DNA of 45,933 nucleotides, taken from contig NZ_QXFM01000030.1 of assembly GCF_003584015.1 (NCBI RefSeq), positions 1 to 45,933 of the forward strand, written 5' to 3'. Below are positions 1 to 15,439 of the stretch, piece after piece. The position numbers and the translations under genes are program-made. A model generated the notes under the pieces. It searched no databases. It was given only the letters and a program-made list of their open reading frames with translations, and was not told where the DNA came from. The DNA is from Aurantiacibacter xanthus. GTDB taxonomy: Bacteria > Pseudomonadota > Alphaproteobacteria > Sphingomonadales > Sphingomonadaceae. Position 1 is the stretch's first letter. Every line of letters starts with the position of its first letter.

Positions 1-288
1 CTGCGCGCAGGCGAAGTGCTCAGCCGCCGCCGCCGATGCCTCGCGCCACGAGGCAAGCGTCTGCCGGGTAAGGTCCGCCAAGCTCTCGTTGCAGCCGGGC
101 AGGTCGGGCAGGACGCTGGCGACGCCGCGCTCGGCCAGCAGACGCATCAGCTCGACGGTGAAGTGGCGGGTCTTGTTGCTCTCGTCGAACCACGCGGGCA
201 GCACCAGCAGGCGCGGGCCGCTGGCGTGATCGCCGCAACGGATAGCCAGTTCCTCGCTGCCGCCGGGCGCTTGCCAGGTGGTCAGCAC
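1..288 (-). CDS. Alpha/beta hydrolase, exosortase A system-associated (hydrolase 2-like), 5' part only
   Basis: An open frame runs from a GTG at 288 to the left edge (96 codons), so the C-terminal part is missing. The visible N-terminus has a hydrophobic strand (LLVLPAWFDESNK) followed by LPDLPGCNES, the pattern of the XrtA-locus hydrolase 2 family, in which an N-K-x-R segment and a D-x-x-G-C-x-x-S segment precede the nucleophile elbow. The catalytic serine lies beyond the edge. The GTG starts 6 nt past the carrier-protein stop, so the two are probably co-translated. The family is thought to hydrolyse an ester or thioester, but its substrate in XrtA loci is unknown; next to an acyl carrier protein a thioesterase-like role is a reasonable inference. 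The assignment rests on gene context and one partial motif. Confidence 0.72.
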   Translation of the reverse strand, partial: MLTTWQAPGGSEELAIRCGDHASGPRLLVLPAWFDESNKTRHFTVELMRLLAERGVASVLPDLPGCNESLADLTRQTLASWREASAAAAEHFACAQ

Positions 289-294
289 GGGGGG

Positions 295-588
295 TCAGCC
301 CTCGGCGCGCTTGGCGCTGACGTAGGCGAGCAGGGCGCCGTAGGTCTCGAGCATGTCGCCATCGACCTCGTCGTCCTCGATCAGGATGTCGCAGCGATCC
401 TCGACCTCGGTGAGGAGACCCGCCACGGCCATGGAGTCGAACTCGGGCAGGTGGCCGAACAGGCCGGAGTTAGCATCAAGCCCCGCCACGCGTTCGTCGG
501 ACAGGCCCAGCACATCGCGCAGGATCGCGCGCAGGATGGCGTCGGTATCGTCGGGTTGCGCCACCGGAGCGGTAAGATCGGTCGTCAT
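295..588 (-). CDS. Acyl carrier protein of the exosortase A locus
   Basis: This 97-residue acidic helical protein carries a carrier-protein core, with the phosphopantetheine attachment serine at Ser52 in PEFDSMAV, where ordinary ACPs have a DSL motif. About 15 residues (MTTDLTAPVAQPDDT) precede the first helix. It starts with ATG at 588, 11 nt after the upstream transferase stop, and the hydrolase follows 6 nt downstream, giving a three-gene leftward operon. ACPs of this kind recur in XrtA loci beside an AMP-dependent ligase, which here lies just across the divergent gap. The inferred role is to carry an acyl or amino-acyl group activated by that ligase and used by the FemAB-like protein. It is unlikely to be the fatty-acid ACP because no fab gene is near. 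Confidence 0.85.
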   Translation of the reverse strand: MTTDLTAPVAQPDDTDAILRAILRDVLGLSDERVAGLDANSGLFGHLPEFDSMAVAGLLTEVEDRCDILIEDDEVDGDMLETYGALLAYVSAKRAEG

Positions 589-599
589 GGCAGCGGCAC

Positions 600-1586
600 T
601 TAGCGATGCAGGGCCAGCGAAACAAGTTTGCGCACGGCAGCCTTGGCCAGTTCGGGCCAGTTGGCGGGCACTCCGGGCCGCAGGCAGGTGAGGCGGCGGC
701 GTTCGCGCACCTCGTCCATCCAGTCGCGCTTGTAGGGATCGTCGCCGGTGCCGAAGTCCACCAGCGTAACCTTGTCGCCATCGATCACCTGCGCGAACAG
801 CGCCGCCGACAGTGTGGTGCCGGGCGACAGGGGCCTGGCGCTCTCGCGGTGGGCGAGCTTATGGATATAGGCAATGCCGTTCTCGACGGTCCAGAACTGC
901 GCGGCGACCGGATGGCCTTCGGCGCGCGCAAGGCCGAAGCGCATCCTGCCCGCTGCCGCTTCCTCGATCGCGAACCGCCTGAGCAGCGCCGGGTCGCCCT
1001 CTTCGGGCTTCCAGCTGTCGGCATAGATGTCTTCGTAGGCGGCCCAATCCTGCTCGTCGAAGGCCTGCGACAGCGTGACCTCGACCTTGCGCCCCTTGCG
1101 CTTGAGCGTGGTACGCAGCTGGCCGGGGCGCTCGGCGAGATACCGGGCGTAGCTGCGCCCGTTCACGGCGAGCACATGGTTCACGTCGCAGTGCTCGTCG
1201 AGCACGATCCAGCCCGTGCGGCGGAAGGCCTCGGCGAGCCGTTCGGCGCTGCCGTCTTCCACGCTCAGCTTGTCGAGCACCACCCGGCGGGACCGGCGGG
1301 CGAGATCGCGGGCAAGCTCGTGCAGAAGGGCCGGATCGGGTGCGGCGCCCGTGAACAGCGGCGACCATGTAAAGGCATACCAGTTGGTGAGCGAGGCAAG
1401 GCCCGCGCCCTGTTGCTCCAGCGGCAGGCACACCTGCTTCGCGCCGTCGCTGGCGCAGGCGAGCAGGGGCTGCTTGCCCGCCTCTTCGAGCAGCGCAAAC
1501 CAGCGCGGGCGGGCAAAAGGGCCTGCCTCGGCCCAGCGCTGGGCTTGCACATCGTTAAGACTGGCGTGATAGCTGATCGCCGTCAC
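600..1586 (-). CDS. FemAB/GNAT-like acyltransferase of the exosortase A locus
   Basis: A 328-residue protein starting with GTG at 1586. It has the two-lobed layout of the FemAB/GNAT superfamily: an N-terminal lobe with ARPRWFALLEEAG, and a C-terminal lobe with LRTTLKRKGRKVEV, VAAQFWTVENGIAYIHKLAH and DFGTGDDPYKRDWM. The phrase putting D-F-G-x-G-D-D-x-Y-K near the end is typical of FemAB-like proteins in polysaccharide loci. Such enzymes move an acyl or aminoacyl group onto an amine. It heads the leftward operon with the carrier protein and hydrolase, which suggests a carrier-bound donor. A second, different FemAB protein lies at 11.6-12.6 kb. No upstream ATG keeps the frame without running into the divergent ligase gene. 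Confidence 0.8.
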   Translation of the reverse strand: MTAISYHASLNDVQAQRWAEAGPFARPRWFALLEEAGKQPLLACASDGAKQVCLPLEQQGAGLASLTNWYAFTWSPLFTGAAPDPALLHELARDLARRSRRVVLDKLSVEDGSAERLAEAFRRTGWIVLDEHCDVNHVLAVNGRSYARYLAERPGQLRTTLKRKGRKVEVTLSQAFDEQDWAAYEDIYADSWKPEEGDPALLRRFAIEEAAAGRMRFGLARAEGHPVAAQFWTVENGIAYIHKLAHRESARPLSPGTTLSAALFAQVIDGDKVTLVDFGTGDDPYKRDWMDEVRERRRLTCLRPGVPANWPELAKAAVRKLVSLALHR

Positions 1587-1606
1587 AGCGAAGAAGTCCC
1601 CATCCT
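1587..1606. promoter_or_regulatory. 20-bp divergent start region
   Basis: Only 20 bp separate the GTG start of the leftward transferase from the TTG start of the rightward ligase. AAGAAG at about 1591-1596 can serve as a weak ribosome site for the ligase. There is no room for two separate promoters here, so each promoter must lie inside the opposite gene's 5' coding region, or the starts are wrong. Confidence 0.5.
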
Positions 1607-3121
1607 TTGAAGCAGCCTGCTAACCTGTTCGAACCCGATCCCGCGCCGTGGCCGCTCGACCATCTCGCTCTGCGTGGGAGCGACGATAGCGCGGCGCTGA
1701 TCCTGAAGCACGAAGTCCTTAGCTGGAAGGCCTTAAGAAGCCGTGTCGGAGCGCTGGCGGGATGGCTCAAGGAACGAGTGCCACAGCCGGGTGCGCGGGT
1801 CGCAAGCTGGGCGGGCAAGGGCGAGCTGACCTGCCTGATGCCGCTTGCCGCCGCACGGGCGGGGCTGGTGCATGTGCCGGTCAACCCGCTGCTCAAACGC
1901 CAGCAGGTCGCGCATATTCTGGCCGACTGCGGCGCGAGCCTGCTGCTCGGCAACAAGGCGCGGCTGTCACTGCTCGAAGCGGGCGACCTGCCCAAGGGCT
2001 GCCCGGCGCTGGAGGATCTGGCCGTGCTCGCCGAGGCGCAGGAGGCCGAGGCCCTGCCGCCCAGCACCGCCGATCCCGACGCGCTTGCCGCGATCCTCTA
2101 CACCTCCGGCTCGACCGGGCGGCCCAAGGGGGTGATGCTCAGCCATACCAACATGTGGCTCGGCGCGGTGAGCGTCGCGCACTATCTCGGCATGGCAGCG
2201 GACGACGTGACGCTCGCCGTGTTGCCGCTAAGCTTCGACTATGGCCAGAACCAGCTGCTCTCCACCTGGTATGCCGGTGGCAGCGTGGTCCCGCTCGACT
2301 ACCTCACCCCGCGCGACGTGGTGAAAGCCTGCGCGCGCCATGGCGTCACCACGCTGGCGGCGGTCCCGCCCTTGTGGGTGCAGCTGATCGAGCAGGACTG
2401 GCCCGCCGAATCCGTCGCCCCCATGCGCAGGCTCACAAATTCGGGCGGGGCGCTGACCGAGGACATGGTCCGCACCCTGCGCCGCATGTTCCCGCAGGCG
2501 CGGCTGTTCCCGATGTATGGCCTGACCGAGGCCTTCCGCTCGACCTATCTCGACCCGGCGATGGTCGACGACCACCCCACCTCGATGGGCCGCGCCATCC
2601 CCTTCGCCGAGATCCTCGTGGTCGACGACAAGGGCGAGGTGGCGAGCGAGGGCGAGCTGGTCCACTGCGGGCCGCTGGTCGCGCAGGGCTACTGGAACGA
2701 TCCCGAGCGCACTGCCGAACGCTTCAAGCCTGCGCCCAAGGCCTCGCTCTATGGCGGCATGGCGGTGTTCTCGGGCGACACCGTGCGGCGCGACGAGCTG
2801 GGCCTGCTCCACTTCGTCGGCCGCACCGACACCATGATCAAGAGCGCGGGCAACCGCATCAGCCCGCAGGAGATCGAGGAGGCCGCCATCGCCACCGGCC
2901 TTGTGAGCGAGGCAGTCGCCTTCGGGGTGCCCGACGCGCGGCTCGGACAGGCAATCCATCTGGTGGTGCGCGGCAGCGGCGACGAGGAGGCCTTGCGCGC
3001 CGCCCTGCGCGCCGACCTGCCCAATTTCATGCAGCCTGCGGTTGTCCGCTGGGTCGAGGCCATTCCCTTGAATCCCAACGGCAAGATCGACCGCGCTGCG
3101 CTTGCGAAGGACCATTCATGA
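1607..3121 (+). CDS. Acyl-CoA ligase (AMP-forming), exosortase A system-associated
   Basis: A 504-residue member of the ANL adenylating superfamily. The AMP/phosphate-binding P-loop YTSGSTGRPKG lies at residues 165-175, the A5-type motif YGLTEAF in the middle, GRTDTMIKSAGNRISP at the hinge, and the catalytic lysine is K493 in NPNGKIDR. It therefore activates a carboxylic acid with ATP and passes it to a thiol, either CoA or the pantetheine arm of the carrier protein next door. Matching members are regular parts of XrtA loci; the substrate is unknown. The start is TTG at 1607, the first in-frame start after the divergent gene. Its TGA overlaps the ATG of the decarboxylase (ATGA), so the two are translationally coupled. 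Confidence 0.9.
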   Translation: MKQPANLFEPDPAPWPLDHLALRGSDDSAALILKHEVLSWKALRSRVGALAGWLKERVPQPGARVASWAGKGELTCLMPLAAARAGLVHVPVNPLLKRQQVAHILADCGASLLLGNKARLSLLEAGDLPKGCPALEDLAVLAEAQEAEALPPSTADPDALAAILYTSGSTGRPKGVMLSHTNMWLGAVSVAHYLGMAADDVTLAVLPLSFDYGQNQLLSTWYAGGSVVPLDYLTPRDVVKACARHGVTTLAAVPPLWVQLIEQDWPAESVAPMRRLTNSGGALTEDMVRTLRRMFPQARLFPMYGLTEAFRSTYLDPAMVDDHPTSMGRAIPFAEILVVDDKGEVASEGELVHCGPLVAQGYWNDPERTAERFKPAPKASLYGGMAVFSGDTVRRDELGLLHFVGRTDTMIKSAGNRISPQEIEEAAIATGLVSEAVAFGVPDARLGQAIHLVVRGSGDEEALRAALRADLPNFMQPAVVRWVEAIPLNPNGKIDRAALAKDHS

Positions 3122-4344
3122 AGCCGCTCGGCCCCATTCCGGCAGACTACACCGCCATCGACGGCGAACTCGCGATTGGCGGGCGCAAGGCGTCGGCGCT
3201 GGTGAAGGAGGCGCGGCGCACGCCGCTGTTCGTCTATTCGCGCGACATCATCGCAGCGCGGGCCGAAGCCCTGCGCGCGGCGATGCCGGAGCGGCTCGCC
3301 ATTCACTATGCGATGAAGGCCAACCCCTATCCGCCGTTGCTCGAACATGTTGCCGATCTGGTCGACGGGCTGGATGTCGCCTCGGGCGGGGAACTGGAGA
3401 TCGCACGCAAGGCGGGTTACCTCGCGCGCGAGATCAGCTTTGCCGGACCGGGCAAGCGCGACCCCGAACTGAAGGCCGCGATCACCACCGGCGTGACGCT
3501 GAACTGCGAAAGCGAGGGCGAAATTTCGCGCGCGCTGGCCATGGGCAAGGCGTTGTCGGTGAAGCCGCGTCTGGCGATCCGGGTCAATCCGGCGTTTGAG
3601 ATACGCGGTTCGGGCATGAAAATGGGCGGCGGGGCAAAGCCCTTCGGGATCGACGAGGAACAGGTGCCGGCGCTTGCCCGGAGGATCGTCGATGAAGGTG
3701 CGGACTGGCGTGGTTTCCACATCTATGCAGGCAGTCAGGCGCTCGACGCTGCCGCCATAATCGAGACGCAGGCCAATGTCATCGCTCTGGCCGCGCGGCT
3801 GGGCGAGGAGGCGGGCGTCGCGGTGCCGGACCTCAACATGGGAGGAGGTTTCGGCATCCCCTATTTCGACAAGGACACGCCGCTCGATATTGCCGCCATC
3901 GGCTCCGCGCTCGCGGGCCAGTTCGGGAAGCTGCCCGAGCGCCTGCAACAGACGCAGTTCGCGATCGAACTGGGGCGCTATCTGGTCGGCGAGGCGGGCG
4001 TCTACCTGACCCGGATCGTCGACCGCAAGGTGAGCCATGGCACTACCTACCTCGTCACTGATGGAGGGCTGCATCACCAGCTCGCCGCCTCGGGCAACTT
4101 CGGCGCGGTGGTGCGGCGCAACTACCCGCTTGCCATCGCCAGCAGGTTCGATGCTGCGGCTGAGGAAGAGGCAAGCGTCGTCGGTTGTCTGTGTACCCCG
4201 CTCGATCGACTGGCCGACAATGCGCTGCTTCCCCGCGCCGAGGTGGGCGATCTGGTGGCGGTGTTCTGCGCCGGGGCCTACGGTGCCAGCGCCAGTCCGG
4301 CGAACTTCCTCGGGCAGGGGCCAGCTGCCGAAATGCTCGTCTGA
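3118..4344 (+). CDS. PLP-dependent decarboxylase, exosortase A system-associated
   Basis: A 408-residue fold-III (alanine-racemase-like) decarboxylase related to diaminopimelate and ornithine decarboxylases. The PLP Schiff-base lysine is K67 in HYAMKANP. Further landmarks are DVASGGELE, the GGGFG glycine loop (LNMGGGFGIPY) that holds the phosphate, and a C-terminal CxxCTPLD-like segment (VGCLCTPLDRL) followed by FCAGAYG, which places the second-subunit active-site cysteine. The enzyme removes CO2 from an amino acid to give an amine; which one is not readable from sequence. The ATG overlaps the ligase stop. With the ligase, carrier protein and FemAB proteins it could supply the amine acceptor or donor of a locus-specific acylation; this is inference. 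Confidence 0.9.
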   Translation: MKPLGPIPADYTAIDGELAIGGRKASALVKEARRTPLFVYSRDIIAARAEALRAAMPERLAIHYAMKANPYPPLLEHVADLVDGLDVASGGELEIARKAGYLAREISFAGPGKRDPELKAAITTGVTLNCESEGEISRALAMGKALSVKPRLAIRVNPAFEIRGSGMKMGGGAKPFGIDEEQVPALARRIVDEGADWRGFHIYAGSQALDAAAIIETQANVIALAARLGEEAGVAVPDLNMGGGFGIPYFDKDTPLDIAAIGSALAGQFGKLPERLQQTQFAIELGRYLVGEAGVYLTRIVDRKVSHGTTYLVTDGGLHHQLAASGNFGAVVRRNYPLAIASRFDAAAEEEASVVGCLCTPLDRLADNALLPRAEVGDLVAVFCAGAYGASASPANFLGQGPAAEMLV

Positions 4345-4545
4345 CCGGGGTAAGGCTACCCACCGGCAAGTCGTCCCCTTTTGGGACATGCCCGTTTAAA
4401 CCCCGCTATTCCGGCGGGTTCCGGCGCAAAACTAACGCAATGTTCACCCTTTCTGACGAGAAGCACAGGTGGATCCACGAGCCTTGCGGCCGCACCGGGT
4501 TTGTCCCCCGCTGCGCCACGGGTTCGACCACGTGAAGGACTTTCG
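4345..4545 (+). promoter_or_regulatory. Leader region ahead of the export/exosortase operon
   Basis: About 200 non-coding bases separate the decarboxylase from the export lipoprotein. A short perfect hairpin, CCCGC/GCGGG with a 7-nt loop, lies at 4402-4418 without a T-run, so it is a weak terminator at best. The frame of the next gene stays open back to a TTG at 4381, but the lipoprotein signal starts at 4546, so that extension is probably untranslated. I could not assign a convincing -35/-10 pair. Confidence 0.4.
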
Positions 4546-5187
4546 ATGCGAACGACCCAAATCGCCCGTCTCTCTCTTGCCGGTGCGGCGCTTGCGCTGA
4601 CGCTGGGAGGCTGCGCCACGAACAGTGCGCCGCAGCTCGAACCGGCTCGGTTCGTTGCCATGCAGGAAGGTCCGGGCGAGGAATATGTCATTGGTCCGCT
4701 TGATGAATTGACCATCCACGTGTGGCGCAACGACGAACTCGGTGCCTCGGTGCAGGTGCGGCCCGACGGGCGCATCACCACCCCGCTGGTGGCCGACATG
4801 CCTGCCGTTGGCAAGACGCCGACCATGCTCGCCGAAGACATCCGGCTGCAGCTCTCGCAGTATATCGAGGAGCCGCTAGTGACCGTCATCGTCAACAAGT
4901 TTGCCGGCACCTTCAGCCAGCAGGTCCGCATCGTCGGCGCGACCGAGCAACCCGCATCGCTGCCCTACCGTGCGAACATGACCCTGCTCGACGCGATGAT
5001 CGCGGTGGGGGGCCTCAGCGAATTTGCGGCGGGCAACCGCGCCAAGCTGATCCGGTTCGACCGTGAAAGCGGCAAGCAGACCGAATATGCGCTGCGCCTG
5101 TCCGACCTGCTGCGCAAGGGCGACAGCGATGCCAACGTCATGCTGATGCCGGGTGATGTTATCATCATCCCGGAAAGCATGTTCTAG
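4546..5187 (+). CDS. Polysaccharide export lipoprotein (Wza/EpsE-like, PEP-CTERM type)
   Basis: A 213-residue outer-membrane export protein. The N-terminus is a lipoprotein signal with lipobox LGGC and acylated Cys23. It is followed by the polysaccharide export domain (EEYVIGPLDELTIHVWRN, then VRPDGRITTPLVADM) and a SLBB-like second domain (VRIVGATEQPASLPYR, ending MLMPGDVIIIPESMF). It would form the periplasmic and outer-membrane part of the exopolysaccharide channel. It is shorter than Wza, as is usual for the XrtA-locus subfamily. ATG 4546 is chosen because it gives a complete signal peptide and follows GAAGGA. It is first in a compact operon reaching 17338. Confidence 0.92.
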   Translation: MRTTQIARLSLAGAALALTLGGCATNSAPQLEPARFVAMQEGPGEEYVIGPLDELTIHVWRNDELGASVQVRPDGRITTPLVADMPAVGKTPTMLAEDIRLQLSQYIEEPLVTVIVNKFAGTFSQQVRIVGATEQPASLPYRANMTLLDAMIAVGGLSEFAAGNRAKLIRFDRESGKQTEYALRLSDLLRKGDSDANVMLMPGDVIIIPESMF

Positions 5188-5203
5188 GCCGGAGGCGGGG
5201 GGC

Positions 5204-6724
5204 TTGAATCACCTTCTGGAAGAAGTGCGGGCAGCGGTATGGGCGGTGTGGAACCGCCGCTGGCTGGCGCTGGGCATCGCCTGGGGCGTGTGCCTGCTGG
5301 GCTGGCTCGCCGTGGCGCTGATCCCCAACTCGTACCAGAGCGAAACGCGCATCTTCATCCAGCTCGACGACGTGCTGGCCGACCAGATCGGCATCGGCTC
5401 GGCGAGCCGTGCGCGCGATATCGACCGCATTCGCCAGACGCTGGTCAGCTCGGTCAATCTGGAAAAGGTCGTGCGCGCCACCCGGCTTGGCGATGCCGTC
5501 ACCACCCCGGCGGAGATGGAAGCGGCGACAGTCAAACTGGCCAAGGAAATCTCGGTCGAGAGCCAGGGGCAGAACATCTTCGAGATCACCGCGACCATCG
5601 GTCGCGGCGACTTTTCCGACCGTGAGAACGCCGAACTGGCGCAGACCGTCACCCAGCGCATGATCGACATCTTCCGCGAGGAGAACCTCGGCGGTGCGCG
5701 CGGCGAACTCGAGCAGTCGATTACCTTCCTCAACCAGCAGCTCGCCGCGCGCGAGGCTGAACTGGCGCAGGCTGAGCAGCAACGTCTGGCCTTCGAGGCG
5801 GCCAACCCCGATCTGGTCGGCGGTTCGGCAGCGATTGCCTCGCAGATGAGCGCCGCCCGCAACGAGTTGCGCAGCGTCGAGGCCGATCTCGCCGCCGCGC
5901 AGAGTGCGCTTGCCGCCCTGCGCGGTCAGCTCGCCAGCACTCCGCGCACGATCATCAGTGCCAATTCGGGCGGACCGCAGGCAGCATTGGCGCAGGCCGA
6001 GGCGAACCTCGCCGCCTTGCAGGCGCGCGGACTGACCCCCGAACACCCCGACCTCATTGCCGCGCAGCGCACGGTGCAGAACCTGCGTGCGACCGTCCAG
6101 CGCGATGGGCCGGGAAGCAGCGGTTCGCTCAATCCGGCCTTTACCTCGCTGCAGTCGATGCTGGTCGAGCGCGAGGCCAATGTGCAGGCGCTGATGTCGC
6201 GCGCGGCGGCGCTGCGCGCGGAGATCGCCTCGATCAACAGCAGCCTCGCGCGCGAGCCGGGCGCAACCGCCGAGGCTCAGCGGATCAGCCGCGATTACGA
6301 CGTGCTGCGCAAGCGCTACGATGACCTGCTCAACGACCGCGAACAGCTGCGCCTGCGCGGCGAGGTCGAAAGCGAAAACAGCGCGATCAAGTTCGAGGTG
6401 ATCGACCCGCCGAGCACGCCGCGCAAGCCTGCCGCACCCAACCGTCCGCTGCTGCTGGCAGGGGTGCTGATCGTGGGGCTGGGTGCCGGAGCGGCGACCG
6501 CCTTTGCGCTGTCCAAGCTCGGCTCGACCTTCGCCACCGCCAGCCAGCTCGAACGCGAAATCGGGCTGCCGGTGATCGGTACGGTGTCGCATGTGTTCAC
6601 ACCTGCGGGGCGCGCATTGCGGGCCAGGCGTCTCAAGTATTTCGCTGCCGGCGTTGGCGGGCTAGGGCTGCTGTTTGTGATCCTGATGGGTCTCGAATTC
6701 GTCCAGCGCGGGCTGGTGGCATGA
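5204..6724 (+). CDS. Chain-length determinant protein (Wzz/GumC-like, PEP-CTERM locus type)
   Basis: About 506 residues. A first membrane segment at about 15-37 (WLALGIAWGVCLLGWLAVAL) precedes a periplasmic Wzz domain and a long coiled-coil rich in Ala, Glu and Gln. A proline-rich IDPPSTPRKPAAPNRP precedes the second membrane segment (LLLAGVLIVGLGAGAATAF), and a third hydrophobic segment lies near the C-terminus. The family sets polysaccharide chain length and couples to a tyrosine autokinase, which is the next gene. The start is taken as TTG 5204 because GGAGGCGGGG sits about 6-15 nt upstream, whereas the in-frame ATG at 5153 overlaps the upstream gene. Confidence 0.9.
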   Translation: MNHLLEEVRAAVWAVWNRRWLALGIAWGVCLLGWLAVALIPNSYQSETRIFIQLDDVLADQIGIGSASRARDIDRIRQTLVSSVNLEKVVRATRLGDAVTTPAEMEAATVKLAKEISVESQGQNIFEITATIGRGDFSDRENAELAQTVTQRMIDIFREENLGGARGELEQSITFLNQQLAAREAELAQAEQQRLAFEAANPDLVGGSAAIASQMSAARNELRSVEADLAAAQSALAALRGQLASTPRTIISANSGGPQAALAQAEANLAALQARGLTPEHPDLIAAQRTVQNLRATVQRDGPGSSGSLNPAFTSLQSMLVEREANVQALMSRAAALRAEIASINSSLAREPGATAEAQRISRDYDVLRKRYDDLLNDREQLRLRGEVESENSAIKFEVIDPPSTPRKPAAPNRPLLLAGVLIVGLGAGAATAFALSKLGSTFATASQLEREIGLPVIGTVSHVFTPAGRALRARRLKYFAAGVGGLGLLFVILMGLEFVQRGLVA

Positions 6725-6734
6725 GGATGGTGGC

Positions 6735-7730
6735 ATGACCGACCAGAGCAAGATCACCGGCCCCGGCGCTGGCCATTCATTGTTCGACCGCGACGAGGAT
6801 GTCTGGGGCGCCGACCATCTGCGTGCGGCACCCGTTCCCGCCGAGCTTGCGCGACCGGTCAACCGTCCGGCCCCGAAACGCCCCGCGCCGCAGGTGGCGT
6901 CCCCCGCCGTGCAAGTGTCCCCTCGCGCAGTCGCTGCCGCAGTCGCTGACGTCGTCACGCCCGAAGTAGCAGACCTTACCCCGGTGCATCTGTCCGGCCA
7001 TATCGAGCCGATCGCGCGCGAACAGTTGCAGCGCGCGGGGCTGATCCAGCCTGAGGGTCAGGTGACGGGACTGCTCGAAGAGTTCCGCATCGTGAAGCGG
7101 CAGGTGCTCAATGCCGTGCGCAAGGCGCGTGAGGCGGGCAAGGGAGCGCGGGCGCAGCGGGTGCTGGTCAGTTCGCCGCTGCCTTCGGAAGGCAAAACCT
7201 TCTGCGCGGCCAATCTCGCGCTCGCCATGGCGGCGGAGAAAGACAGCGAAGTGCTGCTGGTCGATGCCGACTTCGCCAAGCCCTCGATCCTCTCGACCTT
7301 CGGCCTGCCGAGCGGCCCCGGCCTGATGGACGTGCTCGCCAATCCCGATATCCGGCTCGAGGACTGCATCATCGAGACCGACATCCCCGGCTTGCTGGTG
7401 CTTCCCGCCGGCAACCAGACCAATTCCGACAGCGAGTTTCTCGCCAGCGCACGCACGGTGCAGGTGCTCGACCGGCTGACGGCGGATGCGCCGAACCGGA
7501 TCGTAATCTTCGATTCGCCGCCCGCGCTGGCGGCCTCTCCTGCGGCGGAACTGGCGCGGCACGTTGGCCAGGTGATCGTCGTTACCCGTGCCGACCGCAC
7601 TGGCCAGAGTGCGCTGGAGGATGCGCTGACGCTGCTGTCGGCCTGCCCCGATATCAAGCTGCTGCTCAACGCGGCGCACTTCAGCCCCAGCGGCCGCCGC
7701 TTCGGCACCTACTACGGTCAGGAGGACTGA
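6735..7730 (+). CDS. Exopolysaccharide tyrosine autokinase (BY-kinase, PEP-CTERM locus type)
   Basis: A 331-residue cytoplasmic kinase. The first ~110 residues are a low-complexity Pro/Ala/Val extension; the P-loop follows at 146-155 (SSPLPSEGKT), then the Walker A' motif VLLVDADF at about 173-180 and a DSPPAL switch segment. The C-terminus ends GTYYGQED, with only a two-tyrosine autophosphorylation site where many BY-kinases have a longer cluster. It acts with the separate chain-length protein encoded 10 nt upstream to control polymerisation and export by cycles of phosphorylation. It lies inside the operon with a 5-nt gap to the next gene. Confidence 0.9.
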   Translation: MTDQSKITGPGAGHSLFDRDEDVWGADHLRAAPVPAELARPVNRPAPKRPAPQVASPAVQVSPRAVAAAVADVVTPEVADLTPVHLSGHIEPIAREQLQRAGLIQPEGQVTGLLEEFRIVKRQVLNAVRKAREAGKGARAQRVLVSSPLPSEGKTFCAANLALAMAAEKDSEVLLVDADFAKPSILSTFGLPSGPGLMDVLANPDIRLEDCIIETDIPGLLVLPAGNQTNSDSEFLASARTVQVLDRLTADAPNRIVIFDSPPALAASPAAELARHVGQVIVVTRADRTGQSALEDALTLLSACPDIKLLLNAAHFSPSGRRFGTYYGQED

Positions 7731-7735
7731 CCGCG

Positions 7736-9373
7736 ATGCGCAGATGCCTGTCGTCCGCCGCTCTGGCCTTGGCCCTGACCAGCGCTTTTGCCGCCCCGGT
7801 GCTGGCGCGCGATGGCGAAACCGGCGGCGAGCACCGCAGCCGAACCCGGATCACGCCTTACATCCAGGCGTCGCAGGTCGTCACCGCCGAGCTTCAGCCC
7901 GGTTCCGACGTGTTCACCTACACCCGCCTCGGCGCGGGGGTCGACGCGGCGATTTCGGGACGCAACTCCACCGCATCGGTCTCACTGCGGTACGAGCGTT
8001 CGATCGGGTGGGATGACAATGTCGCCGATGTCGACACGCTGACCGGCATTGCGCGCGGCTCGCTGGCGCTGGTGCCGCGTACGCTCACGCTCGAAGCGGG
8101 CGGCATGGCGGCGCGGACCCGGATCGACCGCAATGGCGCGACCTCGATTGGCGGCTATGGCACCAATTCGGATTCAACCACGCAGATATACTCTGTCTAC
8201 GCCGGGCCGAGCCTGCAAACCAACGTCGGCGATGTCGCCGTCAGCGGGGCCTATCTGATCGGCTACTCGCGGGTCGATTCGCCCGATGTGGTGCCGGTCT
8301 CCTCGACCGGCGAACTGGTCGACGTGTTCGACGACAGCATCAGCCAGTCCGCCCGGCTGCACGCAGGAATTGCCCCCAATACGGTTCTTCCTGTCGGGCT
8401 GGGTGTGGGGGCGGGCTGGAACCGTCAGGACGTGTCCAATCTCGACCAGCGGGTGGATGACCGTCATGTGCGGGCCGATATCACGGTGCCGGTCACGCGC
8501 GAGGTCGCGCTGATCGGGGGCGTGGGCTACGAAGACGTCGAAGTGTCGACCCGCGATGCCTTGCGCGATAGCGAGGGCAGGCCGGTGATCGGCGCCGATG
8601 GCCGCTTCGTCACCGACGATACGAAGCCGCGCCAGATTGCCTACGACACCGACGGCCTGATCTGGGACGTGGGCGTGATGTGGCGACCGAGCCGCCGCAC
8701 CAGCCTCACCGCCTCGGTCGGCCGCCGTTACGATTCGTCGACTTACTACGGCTCGCTGTCCTATGCGCCCAACGCCAATACCTCGCTCAATGTCTCGGTT
8801 TTCGACGAGATCACCGGCTTCGGTGGGCAGATGGCCAATTCGCTCAACGGCCTCAGCACCAGCTTCCAGGCGATCCGCAATCCGGTGACCGGCGACCTTG
8901 GCGGCTGCGTGGGCAGCCTCGAAGGCGGCAACTGCACGCTGGCGGGGCTCGGCTCACTGCGTTCGGCGATCTATCGCCGCCGCGGTGTCAGCGCCAGCTT
9001 CGCGCGCACCATGGGCCGCACCCAGCTCGGGCTCGGGCTCGGCTACGAGCGGCGCAAATATATCGCCGCGCCGGGCACGGTGCTGGCCGCTATCGATGGC
9101 CTTACCGACGAGAACTACTGGATCTCGGCCTTTGCCACGCGCCGGCTTGATCGTCGCTCCAGTCTCAACTTCGGCGCTTCGGCCTCATGGTTCGAAACTG
9201 GACTCGATAATGCTGGCAGTTCCGTCGGTTACAGCGCAACGCTTTCGTACTATAGAAGCCTGATCGCGGGCCTGAGCGGCACGGCAGCCGTCGGCCTCGA
9301 TGGAATTTCGCGCGAAAGCCTGCCCGATTACACCTCCGCATCGGCCCTAGTCGGCCTGCGCTATTCCTTCTGA
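7736..9373 (+). CDS. Outer-membrane beta-barrel protein, PEP-CTERM system-associated
   Basis: 545 residues with a Sec signal peptide (positively charged MRRC, then ALALALTSAFAAPVLA, cleavage near residue 25). Alternating hydrophobic strands then run to a terminal aromatic, LVGLRYSF, the usual C-terminal signature of an outer-membrane barrel read by the BAM complex. Tyr and Gly are frequent in strand turns. The length, position between kinase and ATPase, and barrel character match the family regularly found in XrtA loci and named only as PEP-CTERM-associated. The inferred role is the outer-membrane pore or secretin-like partner for the exopolysaccharide; no catalytic motif is visible. Confidence 0.82.
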   Translation: MRRCLSSAALALALTSAFAAPVLARDGETGGEHRSRTRITPYIQASQVVTAELQPGSDVFTYTRLGAGVDAAISGRNSTASVSLRYERSIGWDDNVADVDTLTGIARGSLALVPRTLTLEAGGMAARTRIDRNGATSIGGYGTNSDSTTQIYSVYAGPSLQTNVGDVAVSGAYLIGYSRVDSPDVVPVSSTGELVDVFDDSISQSARLHAGIAPNTVLPVGLGVGAGWNRQDVSNLDQRVDDRHVRADITVPVTREVALIGGVGYEDVEVSTRDALRDSEGRPVIGADGRFVTDDTKPRQIAYDTDGLIWDVGVMWRPSRRTSLTASVGRRYDSSTYYGSLSYAPNANTSLNVSVFDEITGFGGQMANSLNGLSTSFQAIRNPVTGDLGGCVGSLEGGNCTLAGLGSLRSAIYRRRGVSASFARTMGRTQLGLGLGYERRKYIAAPGTVLAAIDGLTDENYWISAFATRRLDRRSSLNFGASASWFETGLDNAGSSVGYSATLSYYRSLIAGLSGTAAVGLDGISRESLPDYTSASALVGLRYSF

Positions 9374-9393
9374 CGGACTACGGGAGTTCACAG

Positions 9394-10653
9394 ATGCACG
9401 ACCAATTCTACGGCTTTACCGCAAGGCCTTTCCAGCTGACCCCCGATCCGGAGTTCTATTTCCGCAGCGCGACGCACCGCAAGGCGCTGTCCTATCTCGG
9501 CTATGGCCTCGCGCAGGGGGAGGGCTTCATCGTCATCACCGGCGAGATCGGCGCGGGCAAGTCGACGCTGGCCGCCCACACGATCCGCAGCCTTGACGAG
9601 AACCAGGTCACGGTCGCGCAGGTCGTCACCAGCCATCTCGATGGCGAGGAGATCGTCCATGTCGTCGCGCGCGCGTTCGGTCTGCAGGTGGCGGGGCACG
9701 ACAAGGCCTCGGCGCTGAGCGAGATCGAAGCCTTCCTGCACGAAGAAGCGCGCGCGGGCCGTCGCTGCCTGCTGGTGGTGGACGAGGCGCAGAACCTGTC
9801 GGTTTCGGCGCTGGAAGAGCTGCGGATGCTGTCGAACTTCCAGCTTGGCAGCCACCCGCTGTTGCAGGTGCTGCTGCTCGGCCAGCCCGAGTTTCGCAAC
9901 ACCTTGCAGAACGAGCCTGCGCTCGAACAGCTGCGCCAGCGTGTCATCGCTGCCCATCATCTCGAATCGATGCAGGCCGACGAGGTCGAACCCTATGTGA
10001 TGCACCGGCTCACGACCGCAGGCTGGCAGGGCAACCCGCAGTTTGGCGAGGGTGTGTTCGCGAAGCTGTATGAGGCCAGCGGCGGCATTCCGCGCAAGGT
10101 CAACCAGATCGTCAACCGGGTGCTGATGCTCGGCTCGCTTGACCGGATCGCGGTGATCGACGGCGAGCTGCTGGACCATGTGCTGGACGAGATGGCGTCC
10201 GAAACGGCCCATCTCGCGCCCGTAAAGACCCTGCGCTCTTTTGCGCGGCCCGAGGCACCGGCTGATGCAGGCGCCGCCGCCGAACAGCCTGCTGTCCCTG
10301 CAATCGATCCGCAGCTGATCGACGACCTGCTGGCCGAACGCGACGTGCGCATTGCCGAACTTGGTGAAGCGCTCGACGAACTGGCGGCGAGGGCGGAAAA
10401 AGCGCCACCCGCCGATCCCGATCAGGACTCCATGCGCGAGCAGATCGCCGAGCTGCAACATGCGGTGCTCGATCTGTCGGGCCAGGCGGAAGAGAGCGTC
10501 AAACGCTTGCTGAAGCCGGAGATCGAAGCCTTGCGGGCGGACATGGCCAAGCTGGAGGCTCGCACCTTCGAGCAGGAACGCACCATCCGCCAGACGCTGT
10601 CGATGCTGATCGAGTGGATCGAGGCGGAAATGGAATCGAGCAAGGCCGCCTGA
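9394..10653 (+). CDS. ExeA-like AAA ATPase, XrtA-associated
   Basis: 419 residues. The N-terminal MHDQFYGFTARPFQLTPDP is the ExeA/GspA-like opening. Walker A is GEIGAGKST at 50-58, Walker B is CLLVVDEAQN at about 125-134, and a GIPRKVNQ sensor-2 segment follows near residue 230. The last ~100 residues are a charged coiled coil (MREQIAELQHAVLDL and onward) in place of the peptidoglycan-binding domain of classic ExeA. It is the 'secretion ATPase' found in nearly all XrtA loci; the inferred role is assembling or energising envelope machinery from the cytoplasmic side. It lies 20 nt after the barrel gene. Confidence 0.9.
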   Translation: MHDQFYGFTARPFQLTPDPEFYFRSATHRKALSYLGYGLAQGEGFIVITGEIGAGKSTLAAHTIRSLDENQVTVAQVVTSHLDGEEIVHVVARAFGLQVAGHDKASALSEIEAFLHEEARAGRRCLLVVDEAQNLSVSALEELRMLSNFQLGSHPLLQVLLLGQPEFRNTLQNEPALEQLRQRVIAAHHLESMQADEVEPYVMHRLTTAGWQGNPQFGEGVFAKLYEASGGIPRKVNQIVNRVLMLGSLDRIAVIDGELLDHVLDEMASETAHLAPVKTLRSFARPEAPADAGAAAEQPAVPAIDPQLIDDLLAERDVRIAELGEALDELAARAEKAPPADPDQDSMREQIAELQHAVLDLSGQAEESVKRLLKPEIEALRADMAKLEARTFEQERTIRQTLSMLIEWIEAEMESSKAA

Positions 10654-10677
10654 GCGGCGGTCGGGGGGCTGCGCCAC

Positions 10678-11589
10678 ATGAACGCGATTACGCCAGATCG
10701 CCCTGTGCAGCAGGGCACGGCCACCCACGCGAGGGTGGTCAACGCCCTGTCGGTCGACGTCGAGGACTGGTTTCAGGTCGGCGCGTTCGAGAAGGTGATC
10801 GGGCGTGACGCATGGCCCTCGCTGGAGGACCGGGTGGAGCGCAATGTCGAGGCGATCCTCGCCATGTTCGACGCGGCGCAGGTCAAGGCCACGTTCTTCA
10901 CGCTGGGCTGGGTGGCCGAGCGGCATAAGCGGCTGATCCGCCGGATCGCCGAGGCAGGCCACGAGATCGCCAGCCACGGGTGGGATCATGCGCGCGTATT
11001 CACGCTCACCCGCGAGGAGTTCGCCGAAGACATCGCGCGGGCGCGCGGTGTGCTCGAGGATGCGGGCGGAACCGAGGTGAAGGGCTATCGCGCACCGAGC
11101 TTTTCGATCGACAAGCGCAACCCCTGGGCCTTCGAAGTGCTGGCCGAGCAGGGCTATACCTATTCGTCGAGCGTGGCCCCGGTGGCGCACGATCACTATG
11201 GCTGGCCCGAAGCCCCGCGCTTTGCCTTCCGGCCGCTGGCCGATGCCGAGCTGATCGAGCTGCCGGTTACCACCGCGATGCTCGGCAGCAGGCGTATCGC
11301 CGCAGGCGGCGGAGGGTTCTTCCGCGTGCTGCCCTATGGCTTCAGCCGCTGGGCGATCCGGCAGGTGAATGGCCGCGAGGGACGGCCCGCGATCTTCTAT
11401 TTCCACCCGTGGGAGGTGGACCCGCAGCAGCCGCGCGTGGCCGATGCCCCGCTGCGCTCGCGCTTTCGGCACTACACCAATCTCGACAAGATGGCGGGCA
11501 AGCTCGCGCGCGTCGTGAACGAGTTTGCGTGGGACCGGGTCGACACGGTGGTCGCGCGCGAGGCGGCCTTGCTGGACGCCGCGCAATGA
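10678..11589 (+). CDS. Polysaccharide deacetylase, PEP-CTERM locus type
   Basis: 303 residues with a NodB-fold domain. Motif 1 is LSVDVEDWF at about 24-32, with the metal and base aspartates; motif 2 is ASHGWDHARV with the two metal histidines; later come KGYRAPSFSID and the histidine motif YFHPWEVDP. It should hydrolyse N-acetyl groups from hexosamines, exposing amines in the glycan. No signal peptide is seen, so it probably acts in the cytoplasm or on lipid-linked intermediates. Its TGA overlaps the ATG of the FemAB gene (ATGA), tying deacetylation to a likely acyl transfer. Confidence 0.92.
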   Translation: MNAITPDRPVQQGTATHARVVNALSVDVEDWFQVGAFEKVIGRDAWPSLEDRVERNVEAILAMFDAAQVKATFFTLGWVAERHKRLIRRIAEAGHEIASHGWDHARVFTLTREEFAEDIARARGVLEDAGGTEVKGYRAPSFSIDKRNPWAFEVLAEQGYTYSSSVAPVAHDHYGWPEAPRFAFRPLADAELIELPVTTAMLGSRRIAAGGGGFFRVLPYGFSRWAIRQVNGREGRPAIFYFHPWEVDPQQPRVADAPLRSRFRHYTNLDKMAGKLARVVNEFAWDRVDTVVAREAALLDAAQ

Positions 11590-12644
11590 ACGCGCCCTTC
11601 GCCATGACCACCGAAACCGTGCGCCTTGCCGAGCTGTCGCAGCCCGACGAGTGCGCGCGCATCGAGGGGTTCGTGGCGTTGCATGGCGGCAGCGTGTTTC
11701 ACAGGCCGCAATGGCTCCATGCGGTGGAGCGCGGCACCGGGCAGCGCGCGCTGGGCCTGATCGCAGAGAAGGGCGGGGCGCTCACCGGGTGGATGCCGCT
11801 CACCGAACTGCATTCGCCGATCTTCGGGCGCACGCTGGCTTCCTCGGGCTTTGCGGTCAACGGCGGCGCGCTTGCGCTGGATGAGCGCGTGGCAGAGCGG
11901 CTGATCGAGGCGGTCGAGGAACTTGCGCAGCGTCTGTCGTGCTCCAGCGTGGAGCTGCGCGGCGGACCGGCTCGCGCCGGGTGGGACATGCTCACCGAGC
12001 GTTATTGCGGCTTCGTGATGCCGCTGGCCGAGGATGACGAGGCCCAGCTCGCCGCCATCCCGCGCAAGCAGCGCGCCGAAGTGCGCAAGAGCCTCAGCCC
12101 CGAGCTGGAAGTCACCATTGGCCGCGAGGAGGGCGAGCGCGCGGCGCACTATGCCGTCTATGCCGAAAGCGTGCGCAACCTTGGCACGCCGGTGTTTCCG
12201 CGCAGCCTGTTCGATGCCGCGCTCGATGCGCTCGATGCCGATATTCTCACCGTGCGCCATCAGGGCGTGCCGGTATCGTCGGTGCTGTCGTTCTATCACG
12301 GCGGCGCGGTGATGCCCTACTGGGGCGGCGGCACCTATGCCGCGCGCCGTCTGCGCAGCAACGACCGCATGTATTACGAGCTGATGTGCCATGCCCGCCG
12401 CAAGGGTTGCATCGCGTTCGATTTCGGGCGCAGCAAGACGGGCACCGGCCCCTATGCCTACAAGAAGACCTGGGGCTTTGAGCCACAGCCGCTGACCTAT
12501 GCCGAATGGACCGTGCCCGGATGCGAGGCGCGCGATGCCGATCCGCTCAGCCCGCAGCACCAGTCGCGCATTGCTGCGTGGAAGCGGTTGCCGCTGGCCG
12601 TCGCCAACCGGCTCGGCCCGCTGATCGCGCGAGGACTCGGCTGA
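11586..12644 (+). CDS. FemAB-related protein, PEP-CTERM system-associated
   Basis: 352 residues of the FemAB superfamily: an N-terminal lobe with GGSVFHRPQWLHAVE, a central IPRKQRAEVRKSLSPELEV, and a C-terminal lobe with CIAFDFGRSKTGTGPYAYKKTWGFEPQPL. The D-F-G-R-S-K-x-G-T-G-x-Y-x-Y-K-K block is diagnostic of the PEP-CTERM subfamily. FemAB enzymes transfer aminoacyl groups onto amines; here the acceptor could be the amine exposed by the deacetylase encoded just before. ATG 11586 overlaps the deacetylase stop, and the TGA shares its last base with the glycosyltransferase ATG (TGATG). The substrate is unknown. Confidence 0.9.
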   Translation: MNAPFAMTTETVRLAELSQPDECARIEGFVALHGGSVFHRPQWLHAVERGTGQRALGLIAEKGGALTGWMPLTELHSPIFGRTLASSGFAVNGGALALDERVAERLIEAVEELAQRLSCSSVELRGGPARAGWDMLTERYCGFVMPLAEDDEAQLAAIPRKQRAEVRKSLSPELEVTIGREEGERAAHYAVYAESVRNLGTPVFPRSLFDAALDALDADILTVRHQGVPVSSVLSFYHGGAVMPYWGGGTYAARRLRSNDRMYYELMCHARRKGCIAFDFGRSKTGTGPYAYKKTWGFEPQPLTYAEWTVPGCEARDADPLSPQHQSRIAAWKRLPLAVANRLGPLIARGLG

Positions 12645-13882
12645 TGGCGGGCGAGATCCTGTTCCTCGCGCACCGGACGCCCTTTCCGCCCGACCGGGGG
12701 GACAAGATCCGCTCGCACAATGTGCTGAAGGCGCTGGCGGCGCTGGCTCCCGTGCATGTCGGCTGTCTGGGCGAGACCGATGCCGATATGGCCGAGGAGA
12801 AGGCGCTGGCCGCACTGGCGGCGAGTTACTGCATGCCGCGGCGAACGAAGCCGCTGCCCCTTGCCGGGATCGAGGCACTGGCAACGGGCGCTGCGATCAG
12901 CATCTCGGCCTTCGAAAACAAGGCGTTGTATCGCTGGGTACGCGACACGCTCACGAACCGCCCCATCGCAGCAATCTACATCTTCTCGGGCCAGATGGGG
13001 CAATATGTTCCACACGACTGGTCCGGGCGGCTGGTGGTCGATTTCGTCGATGTCGATTCCGCCAAGTTCGAGGCCTACGCGGCAAAGAGCGGCTTGCCGA
13101 TGCGCTGGGTCCATGCCCGCGAGGGGCGGCTGCTGCGCCACTACGAAGCGCAGCTTGCCGCCCGTGCCGATTGCTCGCTGCTGGTGAGCGACGAAGAGGC
13201 AGCCCTGATGCGCGCGCGTTGCCCCGGCGTGCCGAACATCGGCGCGCTGCGTAACGGCATCGATTGTGCGCTCTACGATCCGGCCAAGGTCCGCCCGCAT
13301 CGCGATCTGGCAAACGCCGCCGGCCCGCATTTCGTGTTCTCGGGGCAGATGGACTATGCCCCCAACATCGACGCAGTGGAGCGGTTCACCCGCCGGATCA
13401 TGCCCGCGATCCTCACGCTTCACCCTGCGGCACAGTTCCACATCGTCGGCCGGGTACCCACCCCGGCGGTGCGCAAGCTGGCGAGCGAGCAGGGCGTGAC
13501 GGTGTGGGGCGAAGTGCCCGACGTGCGACCGTTTCTTGCAGCGGCCAGCATGGTTGTCGCACCGCTAACCATTGCGCGCGGGGTGCAGAACAAGGTGCTG
13601 GAGGCCATGGCCATGGCAAAGACCGTGCTCGCCTCGCCCGAAGCGCTGACCGGGATCGACGGCGAGGATGGCGAGCACTTCCTGCGCTGCGACAGCGACG
13701 CTGAATTTGTGGCGCAAGCCTGCGCGCTGGCGGATGACAGGTTCCGCGCCGAGAAGGTCGGCAAGGCTGCGCGCCAGCTCGTGCTCGACCGGATGAGCTG
13801 GCCCGCCATGATGGCTCCGCTGGCGGACATCGTCGGCCTAACGCCCGGTCCCGAACGAACGGCTCGTCGCAATGCGGCTTGA
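12644..13882 (+). CDS. Glycosyltransferase, PEP-CTERM/EpsH1 system-associated
   Basis: 412 residues of the GT-B, GT4-like type: N-terminal LFLAHRTPFPPDRGDKIRS, central FSGQMDYAPNIDAVERF, and a nucleotide-sugar site with VVAPLTIARGVQNKVLEAMAM, whose Q-N-K-x-L-E-A-M-A block is the E-x7-E-type donor site. The opening H-R-x-P-(F/Y)-P-P-x-x-G-D-K-I-R marks the XrtA-associated subfamily. It adds one sugar to the lipid-linked repeat at the cytoplasmic membrane face. It is the only GT-B glycosyltransferase in the window, so others must lie elsewhere. The start overlaps the FemAB stop by one base; the 3' end overlaps xrtA by 11 bases. Confidence 0.9.
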   Translation: MAGEILFLAHRTPFPPDRGDKIRSHNVLKALAALAPVHVGCLGETDADMAEEKALAALAASYCMPRRTKPLPLAGIEALATGAAISISAFENKALYRWVRDTLTNRPIAAIYIFSGQMGQYVPHDWSGRLVVDFVDVDSAKFEAYAAKSGLPMRWVHAREGRLLRHYEAQLAARADCSLLVSDEEAALMRARCPGVPNIGALRNGIDCALYDPAKVRPHRDLANAAGPHFVFSGQMDYAPNIDAVERFTRRIMPAILTLHPAAQFHIVGRVPTPAVRKLASEQGVTVWGEVPDVRPFLAAASMVVAPLTIARGVQNKVLEAMAMAKTVLASPEALTGIDGEDGEHFLRCDSDAEFVAQACALADDRFRAEKVGKAARQLVLDRMSWPAMMAPLADIVGLTPGPERTARRNAA

Positions 13883-15428
13883 AGCGATCTCCTCCCCCAC
13901 GCGCGCTCCGCTGACCGAGAGCATCGCCCCGCAGTGGCGCGCCCCGCTGTTGCACCTCGCGCTCGCATGGGCGGCGCTGCTGGCGCTGTTTGCCGGTGAA
14001 TGGGTCACTATGGCCGGGCATTGGTGGAGCAATTCGACCTATAACCATATCCTGTTCGTGCCGCCGATCCTTGCCTGGCTCGTGTGGCAGCGTCTGCCCG
14101 AACTGGCCCGCCTGACCCCGCGCGCGTGGTGGCCGGGCTTGCTCGCACTTGCCGGGGCCATGCTCGTCTGGTTGCTCGGCAACATTTCGGGGCTGGCCAC
14201 GGCAAGCCAGCTTGGCGCGGTGGCAATGCTGCCGGCAACTGCCTTGGCGCTGCTCGGCCCACGGGTTGCCTATGCGCTGCTGTTCCCGCTGTTTTACAGC
14301 CTGTTCCTCGTACCTTTTGGCGACGAGTTGGTGCCTGTCCTGCAAATGATCACGGCGGACATCACCATTGCGCTTACCCATGCCTCGGGCATTCCGGCCG
14401 AGATCGAGGGCGTGTTCATCGACACCCCGGTCGGCTTGTTCGAAGTGGCCGAAGCCTGCTCGGGGGTGAAGTTTCTCGTCGCCATGGTGGCGCTGGGCAC
14501 GCTGATCGCGAACCAGTGCTATCGCTCGGTCTGGCGGCGGATGGCCTTTCTGGCAGCCTCGGTCATCGTTCCCATTATCGCCAACGGCGTGCGCGCCTGG
14601 GGCACGATCTACATTGCGCAGTTTCAGGGCATCGAATTCGCCGCCGGGTTCGACCATATCTTCTACGGCTGGATCTTCTTCGCGGTGGTGATGGCGGTCC
14701 TGATCGGCGCAGGCTGGCGCTTCTTCGACCGCAGGGTGGACGAGCCCGCCATCGACCTCGCCGGGATCGAGGGCGCGCGCTGGATCGCGCGGCTCGAACG
14801 GTTTGCGGCGCCGGGCTGGGCAGTGCTCGCCGGGGTCTTTGCGCTGGCCCTTGGCGCAACCGCATGGGCAGGCGCGGCACGCGCGGTTGAGGCTCCGCTG
14901 CCGCAGGCTATCGTACTGCCGCAAGTCGCAGGCTGGGAGCAGGTGCCGACCGTGCAGGCGTGGAGCTGGCGGCCCGATTCTCCCGGCGCTGACCGCCGCC
15001 TGTTCGGCACCTATCGCAGCGCCACCGGCCAGCGGGTCGACGTGTTCCTCGCCTATTATGCGGCGCAGGAAGAAGGCCGCGAGGCCGGGGCCTATGGCGA
15101 GGGCGCGCAGCCGCTGGACACCGAATGGCGCTGGCTTGGCGAAGCTCCCGCTATTGACGGCGGCAAGGGTGACCGCCTTCAGGCCGTGGGTCTCCACCCG
15201 CGCCTCGCCATGACCTGGTATCGCCATGGCGACTGGACGGGCAGCAGCCGCCTTGAACTCAAGGCCCTGACAATGCGCGACCGTTTGCTGTTCACCGCCC
15301 GGCCGACCGCGACGATGATAGTCTCGGCAGAGGGTGGGGGCGAGGAAGCGCAGGCTGCCATTGCCGACTTTCTCGACGCTATCGGCCCGTCCGGCAAATG
15401 GATGGACCGCATCGTCGGCTTGGATTAG
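13872..15428 (+). CDS. xrtA: Exosortase A fused to an EpsI domain
   Basis: 518 residues. The first ~285 are a multi-pass membrane exosortase with the catalytic triad visible: Cys196 in EVAEACSGV, Arg241 in IANGVRAW and His262 in GFDHIFYGW. A membrane segment around 305-325 leads into a ~190-residue periplasmic EpsI (DUF3485-like) domain with AGWEQVPTVQAW, VFLAYYAAQEEGREA and a late TWYRHGDW. Exosortases cut C-terminal PEP-CTERM tails from exported proteins and are thought to attach the product to a membrane or glycan partner. EpsI is often a separate gene; here it is one chain. ATG 13872 lies within the end of the glycosyltransferase gene. Confidence 0.96.
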   Translation: MRLEAISSPTRAPLTESIAPQWRAPLLHLALAWAALLALFAGEWVTMAGHWWSNSTYNHILFVPPILAWLVWQRLPELARLTPRAWWPGLLALAGAMLVWLLGNISGLATASQLGAVAMLPATALALLGPRVAYALLFPLFYSLFLVPFGDELVPVLQMITADITIALTHASGIPAEIEGVFIDTPVGLFEVAEACSGVKFLVAMVALGTLIANQCYRSVWRRMAFLAASVIVPIIANGVRAWGTIYIAQFQGIEFAAGFDHIFYGWIFFAVVMAVLIGAGWRFFDRRVDEPAIDLAGIEGARWIARLERFAAPGWAVLAGVFALALGATAWAGAARAVEAPLPQAIVLPQVAGWEQVPTVQAWSWRPDSPGADRRLFGTYRSATGQRVDVFLAYYAAQEEGREAGAYGEGAQPLDTEWRWLGEAPAIDGGKGDRLQAVGLHPRLAMTWYRHGDWTGSSRLELKALTMRDRLLFTARPTATMIVSAEGGGEEAQAAIADFLDAIGPSGKWMDRIVGLD

Positions 15429-15439
15429 GCCCAACGCCG

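Follow-up and report, generated by a model that had tools for sequence, protein, structure and literature searches.

What do a ligase, a carrier protein and a decarboxylase make when their genes stand beside an exosortase A (XrtA) locus? The question is raised by the first 4344 nucleotides of the window, by which we mean the whole 45,933-nucleotide stretch of Aurantiacibacter xanthus DNA analyzed here (contig NZ_QXFM01000030.1, positions 1 to 45,933). A preliminary description had placed a five-gene module next to the exosortase locus, and all five genes are present, arranged as two divergent groups: a leftward one with a transferase, an acyl carrier protein (ACP) and the start of a hydrolase, and a rightward one with the ligase and a pyridoxal phosphate (PLP) decarboxylase, followed by the XrtA locus (Table 1). 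The decarboxylase gene begins, with ATG, 4 bases before the ligase gene ends, and only the N-terminal piece of the hydrolase is seen because the contig starts at base 1. The ligase and decarboxylase families are already named exosortase A-associated in NCBIfam, with no substrate assigned. The best explanation, to which we give slightly better than even chances, is that ligase, ACP and PLP decarboxylase (together, the core) form a carrier-bound decarboxylation line with two putative outlets, transfer onto an amine and release of beta-alanine. Its substrate, product and target are inferred from computed gene content, homology, signature residues, folds, fusions and co-occurrence.

We compared two sets of genomes, a phylum set of 299 and a family set of 59, with seven genomes of the own family of A. 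xanthus common to both. The clustering of the core exceeds chance: the ligase gene lies next to the decarboxylase gene in all 49 family loci, and the ACP is present in 48 of them.

The ligase exceeds the TIGR03098 (ligase_PEP_1) cut-off (637.2 versus 592.35 bits), and the sole PDB match of its active-site segment at E < 1e-8 is VinN. According to the available parts of PMC11284099, VinN loads (methyl)aspartate onto a carrier and, in vicenistatin biosynthesis, 3-methylaspartate onto VinL. Residues D211 and R311 of the window ligase correspond in the alignment to VinN D230 and R331. The Asp, at the GrsA 235 position, is invariant in 16 aligned ligases, and an Arg at the VinN 331 position occurs in 0 of the 13 other AMP-binding proteins of the A. 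xanthus genome. This Arg is retained in a shortened beta13-beta14 loop, which aligns to VinN ungapped and is two residues shorter than that of LgrA. VinN Lys330 is not kept, being Phe in the window ligase and in all 16 aligned ligases, and at the GrsA 236 position, where VinN has the bulky Phe231, the window ligase has Tyr and 73 of 74 ligase frames from named loci have Ala. When searched with the family profile, the single VinN domain scored 285.4 bits versus 235.5 for the better LgrA domain. LgrA was rejected as the nearest ligase relative, since it ranks first in PDB searches because the scores of its two adenylation domains add up. Structure did not single VinN out: it lay outside the best 50 Foldseek rows and was tied in the VIA alignment with other ligases, the fatty-acid ligase FACL13 among them. 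By analogy with VinN, the ligase probably activates an amino acid, likely aspartate, for carrier loading. Ligases still nearer to VinN at the loop (TEC-KR) stand beside an asparagine-synthetase-like gene in three other loci (L093, L094 and L095, near 9600–11470), and no decarboxylase was detected in these fetched stretches.

The decarboxylase meets TIGR03099 (dCO2ase_PEP1; 586.8 bits versus a cut-off of 478.45), and its best PDB match is BtrK, an L-glutamyl-[BtrI ACP] decarboxylase, with 232.6 bits versus 143.2 for the best diaminopimelate (DAP) decarboxylase. With the family profile, BtrK scored 358.8 bits versus 240.8 for the next enzyme. Identity is 35.9% to BtrK (over 379 residues), 32.0% to the DAP decarboxylase 2P3E and 28.1% to LysA of the same genome. 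A tree groups LysA with DapDC (support 100) and places BtrK on the side of the family, but its deeper nodes reach a support of only 65–77. With BtrK as the closest solved enzyme, the substrate of the decarboxylase is most likely a carrier-bound amino acid; this refines the earlier view of an amine-making PLP decarboxylase, in that the amino acid would not be free. During vicenistatin biosynthesis, loading by VinN must come first, and VinO then decarboxylates 3-methylaspartate on VinL (PMC11284099, available parts). By analogy, the three roles of loading, carrying and decarboxylating appear to be encoded in the window. Both the decarboxylase (60%) and xrtA have their closest plasmid match in Sphingomonas parapaucimobilis, and we accordingly take the family of the family set to be Sphingomonadaceae.

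The ACP matches PF00550 (23.8 bits, cut-off 20.8), and Ser52, singled out in the preliminary description, belongs to an E-x-D-S motif, in which Glu, Asp (D51) and Ser do not vary among 17 aligned ACPs. The best solved match of the ACP-family profile is chain A of 2LKI (106 bits), deposited as a putative uncharacterized protein and presumably a structural-genomics holo-ACP of Nitrosomonas europaea; 5CZD, which we take to be VinL, scored 30 bits. The transferase matches PF13480 (61.6 bits, cut-off 22) and is not a TIGR03019 FemAB, as no NCBIfam model matched it up to E 0.01. Its AlphaFold 2 (AF2) model (pLDDT 90) has a Fem fold across most of the chain, with Sba18/Sbb17, FemX/FemA and MprF as nearest folds. 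In two genomes (L067 and L151) the transferase is fused to the ACP, which suggests a donor other than aminoacyl-tRNA. Two further claims of the preliminary description gain support: the VinN-type active site and the ACP beside the pair support a ligase that loads the carrier, and the fusions and predicted FemX-like fold support a transferase that passes on an aminoacyl group. The hydrolase misses the TIGR03101 (hydr2_PEP) cut-off of 202.75 bits both as the truncated window piece (Table 1) and as its full-length L067 homologue (41.7 bits); the L056 hydrolase meets it (318 bits), and a hydrolase-2-like gene (phmmer, at least 25 bits) occurs in 39 of 49 family loci. In one locus (L063:11864-12634) the ligase-decarboxylase pair is followed by a PEP-CTERM/exosortase-associated acyltransferase, TIGR03694 (269 bits, cut-off 112).

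Taken together, a VinN-type ligase, a BtrK-like decarboxylase, an adjacent ACP and a FemX-like transferase point to an omega-aminoacyl-ACP, probably beta-alanyl-ACP. Following VinN, the ligase would activate a dicarboxylic amino acid, most likely aspartate, via its beta-carboxylate (as a beta-amino acid) and load it onto the ACP. Following BtrK and VinO, the decarboxylase would strip the free alpha-carboxylate on the carrier to leave an omega-aminoacyl thioester, most likely beta-alanyl-S-ACP. In outlet one, suggested by fold and fusion, the Fem/GNAT-type transferase would move this group onto an amine, plausibly that of an amino sugar freed by a polysaccharide deacetylase in XrtA loci and polysaccharide clusters; we rate this transfer at just under even chances. 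In outlet two, a more tentative proposal, beta-alanine would be released for pantothenate, letting genomes do without PanD. After loss of XrtA the core may persist because thioester hydrolysis by a hypothetical releasing enzyme would yield beta-alanine for pantothenate. A bolder version seems improbable to us: that carrier-bound aspartate decarboxylation would be one more way, so far unreported, for bacteria to obtain beta-alanine and coenzyme A. In addition, beta-alanyl-ACP would be the donor from which the Fem-type transferase places a primary amine on the envelope glycan or lipid to which exosortase A joins PEP-CTERM proteins, a role comparable to that of FemABX peptides for sortase A.

The core is found in three genomic settings. 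In XrtA loci it occurs with hydrolases and often with the transferase. In polysaccharide clusters of Sinorhizobium meliloti (L297) and Aureimonas sp. AU20 (L299) it stands with glycosyltransferases and a polysaccharide deacetylase, and no exosortase gene was found within those stretches of 17–21 kb around the core, for which the plasmid gene tables are incomplete. A conserved neighbor of about 290 residues precedes the ligase in XrtA-free clusters (L060:7469-8356, L297:7499-8386 and L299:5521-6390). In one of the three clusters this 295-residue neighbor is weakly GNAT-like (12.6 bits, cut-off 25), and the genome that carries L060 (G164) has no XrtA match. The third setting comprises nine orphan cores, family loci that lack exopolysaccharide (EPS) genes, hydrolases and the transferase; the ACP is present in eight. 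None of the nine genomes has XrtA over its cut-off (five have a weaker exosortase match, four none at all), and one orphan locus (L072) retains two XrtA-locus genes. An orphan-core genome, G053, also has a second, sub-cut-off ligase-decarboxylase pair (L092:7257-10872).

Since the core also occurs in polysaccharide clusters and orphan loci, it is not tied to exosortase A. An exosortase-only role as the whole story was rejected: 11 of the 50 decarboxylase-bearing family genomes have no XrtA over cut-off, and five XrtA genomes lack the decarboxylase. The "locus-specific" modification proposed earlier is not supported, because of the orphan cores and because the core is anti-correlated with PanD, a pattern indicating a second outlet of a housekeeping kind. 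A glycan, one of the targets proposed earlier, is a plausible one in view of the polysaccharide clusters, in which the core is present and the stretches covered show no exosortase gene.

Within the phylum set, the decarboxylase was over its cut-off in 26 genomes, XrtA in 29, both in 24 and neither in 268 (P-value 2e-28; all co-occurrence P-values given here ignore descent). Of the 26 decarboxylase genomes, 25 have a ligase that exceeds its cut-off; in the last one it reached 548.7 bits, beside the decarboxylase. PanD was present in 0/26 decarboxylase genomes versus 139/273 others (Fisher P-value 5e-8), and the exclusion held outside the own family (0/10; P-value 0.0017) and when one PanD-rich family was also omitted (P-value 0.006). 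In the family set, 50 of 59 genomes have the decarboxylase and 39 have XrtA, all within the 50. PanD occurs in 4 of the 59 and in none of the 50, including the 11 without XrtA; panC is found in 57, including all 50. As core genomes lack PanD and all 50 family ones have panC, the core may also supply beta-alanine. In the part of PMC7142369 available, 17 Sphingomonadales other than Zymomonas are tabulated: every one has pantothenate synthetase but neither PanD nor GAD, the beta-alanine synthase that acts in uracil breakdown is missing from 15, and 13 have a transaminase as a possible beta-alanine source. The available portions of PMC9666465, PMC5764234, PMC11535334 and PMC7250832 give no answer on sphingomonad vitamin needs.

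Several observations weigh against this reading. PanP is over its cut-off alongside the core in 4 of the 26 phylum genomes (the remaining 22 have neither PanD nor PanP), and both are likewise absent from 108 of the 273 decarboxylase-free phylum genomes. XrtA excludes PanD nearly as strongly as the decarboxylase does (1/29), and five XrtA genomes lack the decarboxylase; of these, four have PanP and one PanD. In three family genomes (G010, G017 and G020) panC is present although both PanD and the core are missing. The PanD genomes occupy only two places in a tree of PanC from 57 genomes, and the exclusion is based on few independent events. Among weaker decarboxylase homologues, considered separately, the exclusion is not seen: PanD is present in 5 of 15 genomes at 310–455 bits, and in one phylum-set family (f32) all 36 listed genomes have a weaker homologue (~235–304 bits) together with PanD. 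G020 has a GC content of ~44% over 15 kb.

The alternative that survives best, which we consider unlikely, is that the same carrier-bound chemistry acts on glutamate or another amino acid to give GABA-ACP or similar, that the product serves only to decorate glycan or lipid, and that the absence of PanD is a coincidence of lineage. BtrK works on glutamyl-ACP, as its PDB name states, the core is found in polysaccharide clusters, and many alphaproteobacteria lack PanD for other reasons (PMC7142369, available part); the ligase pocket, however, resembles the aspartate-type VinN, the exclusion of PanD persists outside the own family (0/10 vs 139/273), and orphan cores persist without EPS genes. It is considerably less probable that the core serves solely to supply beta-alanine for coenzyme A, with its position at XrtA loci a matter of history and no part in glycan or protein sorting. 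This would agree with PanD exclusion, panC retention and the nine orphan cores, whose genomes have no XrtA over cut-off, but the core is kept beside PanP in four genomes, so that beta-alanine supply cannot be its sole use, and the joint occurrence of decarboxylase and XrtA in 24 phylum genomes, the transferase-ACP fusions and the polysaccharide clusters also argue against it. Least probable is the first reading, in which the ligase turns an ordinary acid into acyl-CoA or acyl-ACP, the decarboxylase converts lysine, ornithine or DAP to a free polyamine, and the transferase joins the two products, for although the family names (acyl-CoA ligase; DAP/ornithine decarboxylase superfamily), the FACL13 tie and the TIGR03694 N-acyltransferase of L063 favor it, the Arg missing from all 13 other AMP-binding proteins, the active-site segment matched by VinN alone and the large lead of BtrK over DAP and ornithine decarboxylases oppose it.

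Beyond the core, ten neighboring open reading frames (ORFs) were scanned: eight exceeded an XrtA/PEP-CTERM family cut-off, one (TIGR03016) fell below, and one had no match. Elsewhere in the A. xanthus genome there is a second exosortase-like match (G000:C31:3542-4300; 80 bits, below the XrtA cut-off), and very long open frames of 4535 and 2838 residues have several adenylation domains (G000:C75 and C89).

Table 1. Features of the window and the basis of their assignment.
Feature	Position	Strand	Basis
Hydrolase 2-like protein, N-terminal piece	1..288	-	TIGR03101 weak, 30.9 bits, below cut-off
Stand-alone ACP, phosphopantetheine site Ser52	295..588	-	PF00550 over cut-off
Fem/GNAT-type aminoacyltransferase-like protein	600..1586	-	PF13480; AF2 fold
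VinN-like amino-acid adenylating ligase	1607..3121	+	TIGR03098; D211 and R311
BtrK-like PLP decarboxylase	3118..4344	+	TIGR03099; BtrK best PDB match
Adjacent XrtA locus: export, chain length, CapB-like, outer membrane protein, ATPase, deacetylase, FemAB, glycosyltransferase, XrtA	4381..15428	+	TIGR03027, 03007, 03016 (below cut-off), 03015, 03006, 03019, 03087, 03109
CapB-like ORF in XrtA locus	6735-7730		Named by eye only
FemAB in XrtA locus, distinct gene from transferase 600-1586	11583-12644		TIGR03019 member
XrtA-system amidotransferase	15398..17338	+	TIGR03108, 922 bits
tRNA-Leu (caa)	33389-33473		

If the proposed line is real, the ligase and decarboxylase of XrtA loci gain a concrete, testable reaction, the published beta-alanine gap of PanD-less Sphingomonadales (PMC7142369, available part) may be filled, and there would be a first clue to the molecules that might receive proteins from exosortase A. 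The closest described set is the exosortase A-associated one of NCBIfam (TIGR03098, TIGR03099, TIGR03100 and TIGR03101): the window ligase and decarboxylase exceed the cut-offs of their models in the same type of locus. Those model names carry no substrate; the ACP, the VinN/BtrK logic, the orphan cores and the PanD exclusion are additions. The available text of PMC1569441, which describes the PEP-CTERM system, and that of PMC2907700, which describes the Dechloromonas exosortase locus, give no role for the ligase and decarboxylase genes. In the papers and listings covered, exosortase and pantothenate were not found together, and no report of a carrier-bound decarboxylation function for these genes was found.

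The VinN-VinL-VinO system of vicenistatin shares an aspartate-type adenylating ligase, a stand-alone ACP and a PLP decarboxylase, which in the window would likewise act on the loaded ACP. It differs in that the scanned window neighbors include no polyketide synthase gene and instead a Fem-type transferase and hydrolases, and in two VinN residues: Lys330 is replaced, as is the bulky Phe231 in most relatives from named loci. From butirosin, BtrI-BtrK provides the nearest solved relative of the window decarboxylase, whereas the window ligase is an adenylation enzyme and the butirosin ligase, BtrJ, is presumably of another fold. The aspartate decarboxylases PanD and PanP share beta-alanine as the proposed product; they belong to other families and decarboxylate free aspartate in one step. 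The PEP-CTERM-linked N-acyl amino acid synthases, which we take to be TIGR03694, likewise place acyl transfer beside exosortase genes, but are of another GNAT family, matched by 0 of the 5 window proteins. FemX/FemA, MprF and streptothricin Sba18/Sbb17 share the predicted fold of the window transferase and use aminoacyl-tRNA as donor, whereas an ACP is the proposed donor here. If these comparisons are right, what is new in the window is that carrier-bound decarboxylation of the antibiotic type would serve the cell envelope or the supply of a vitamin.

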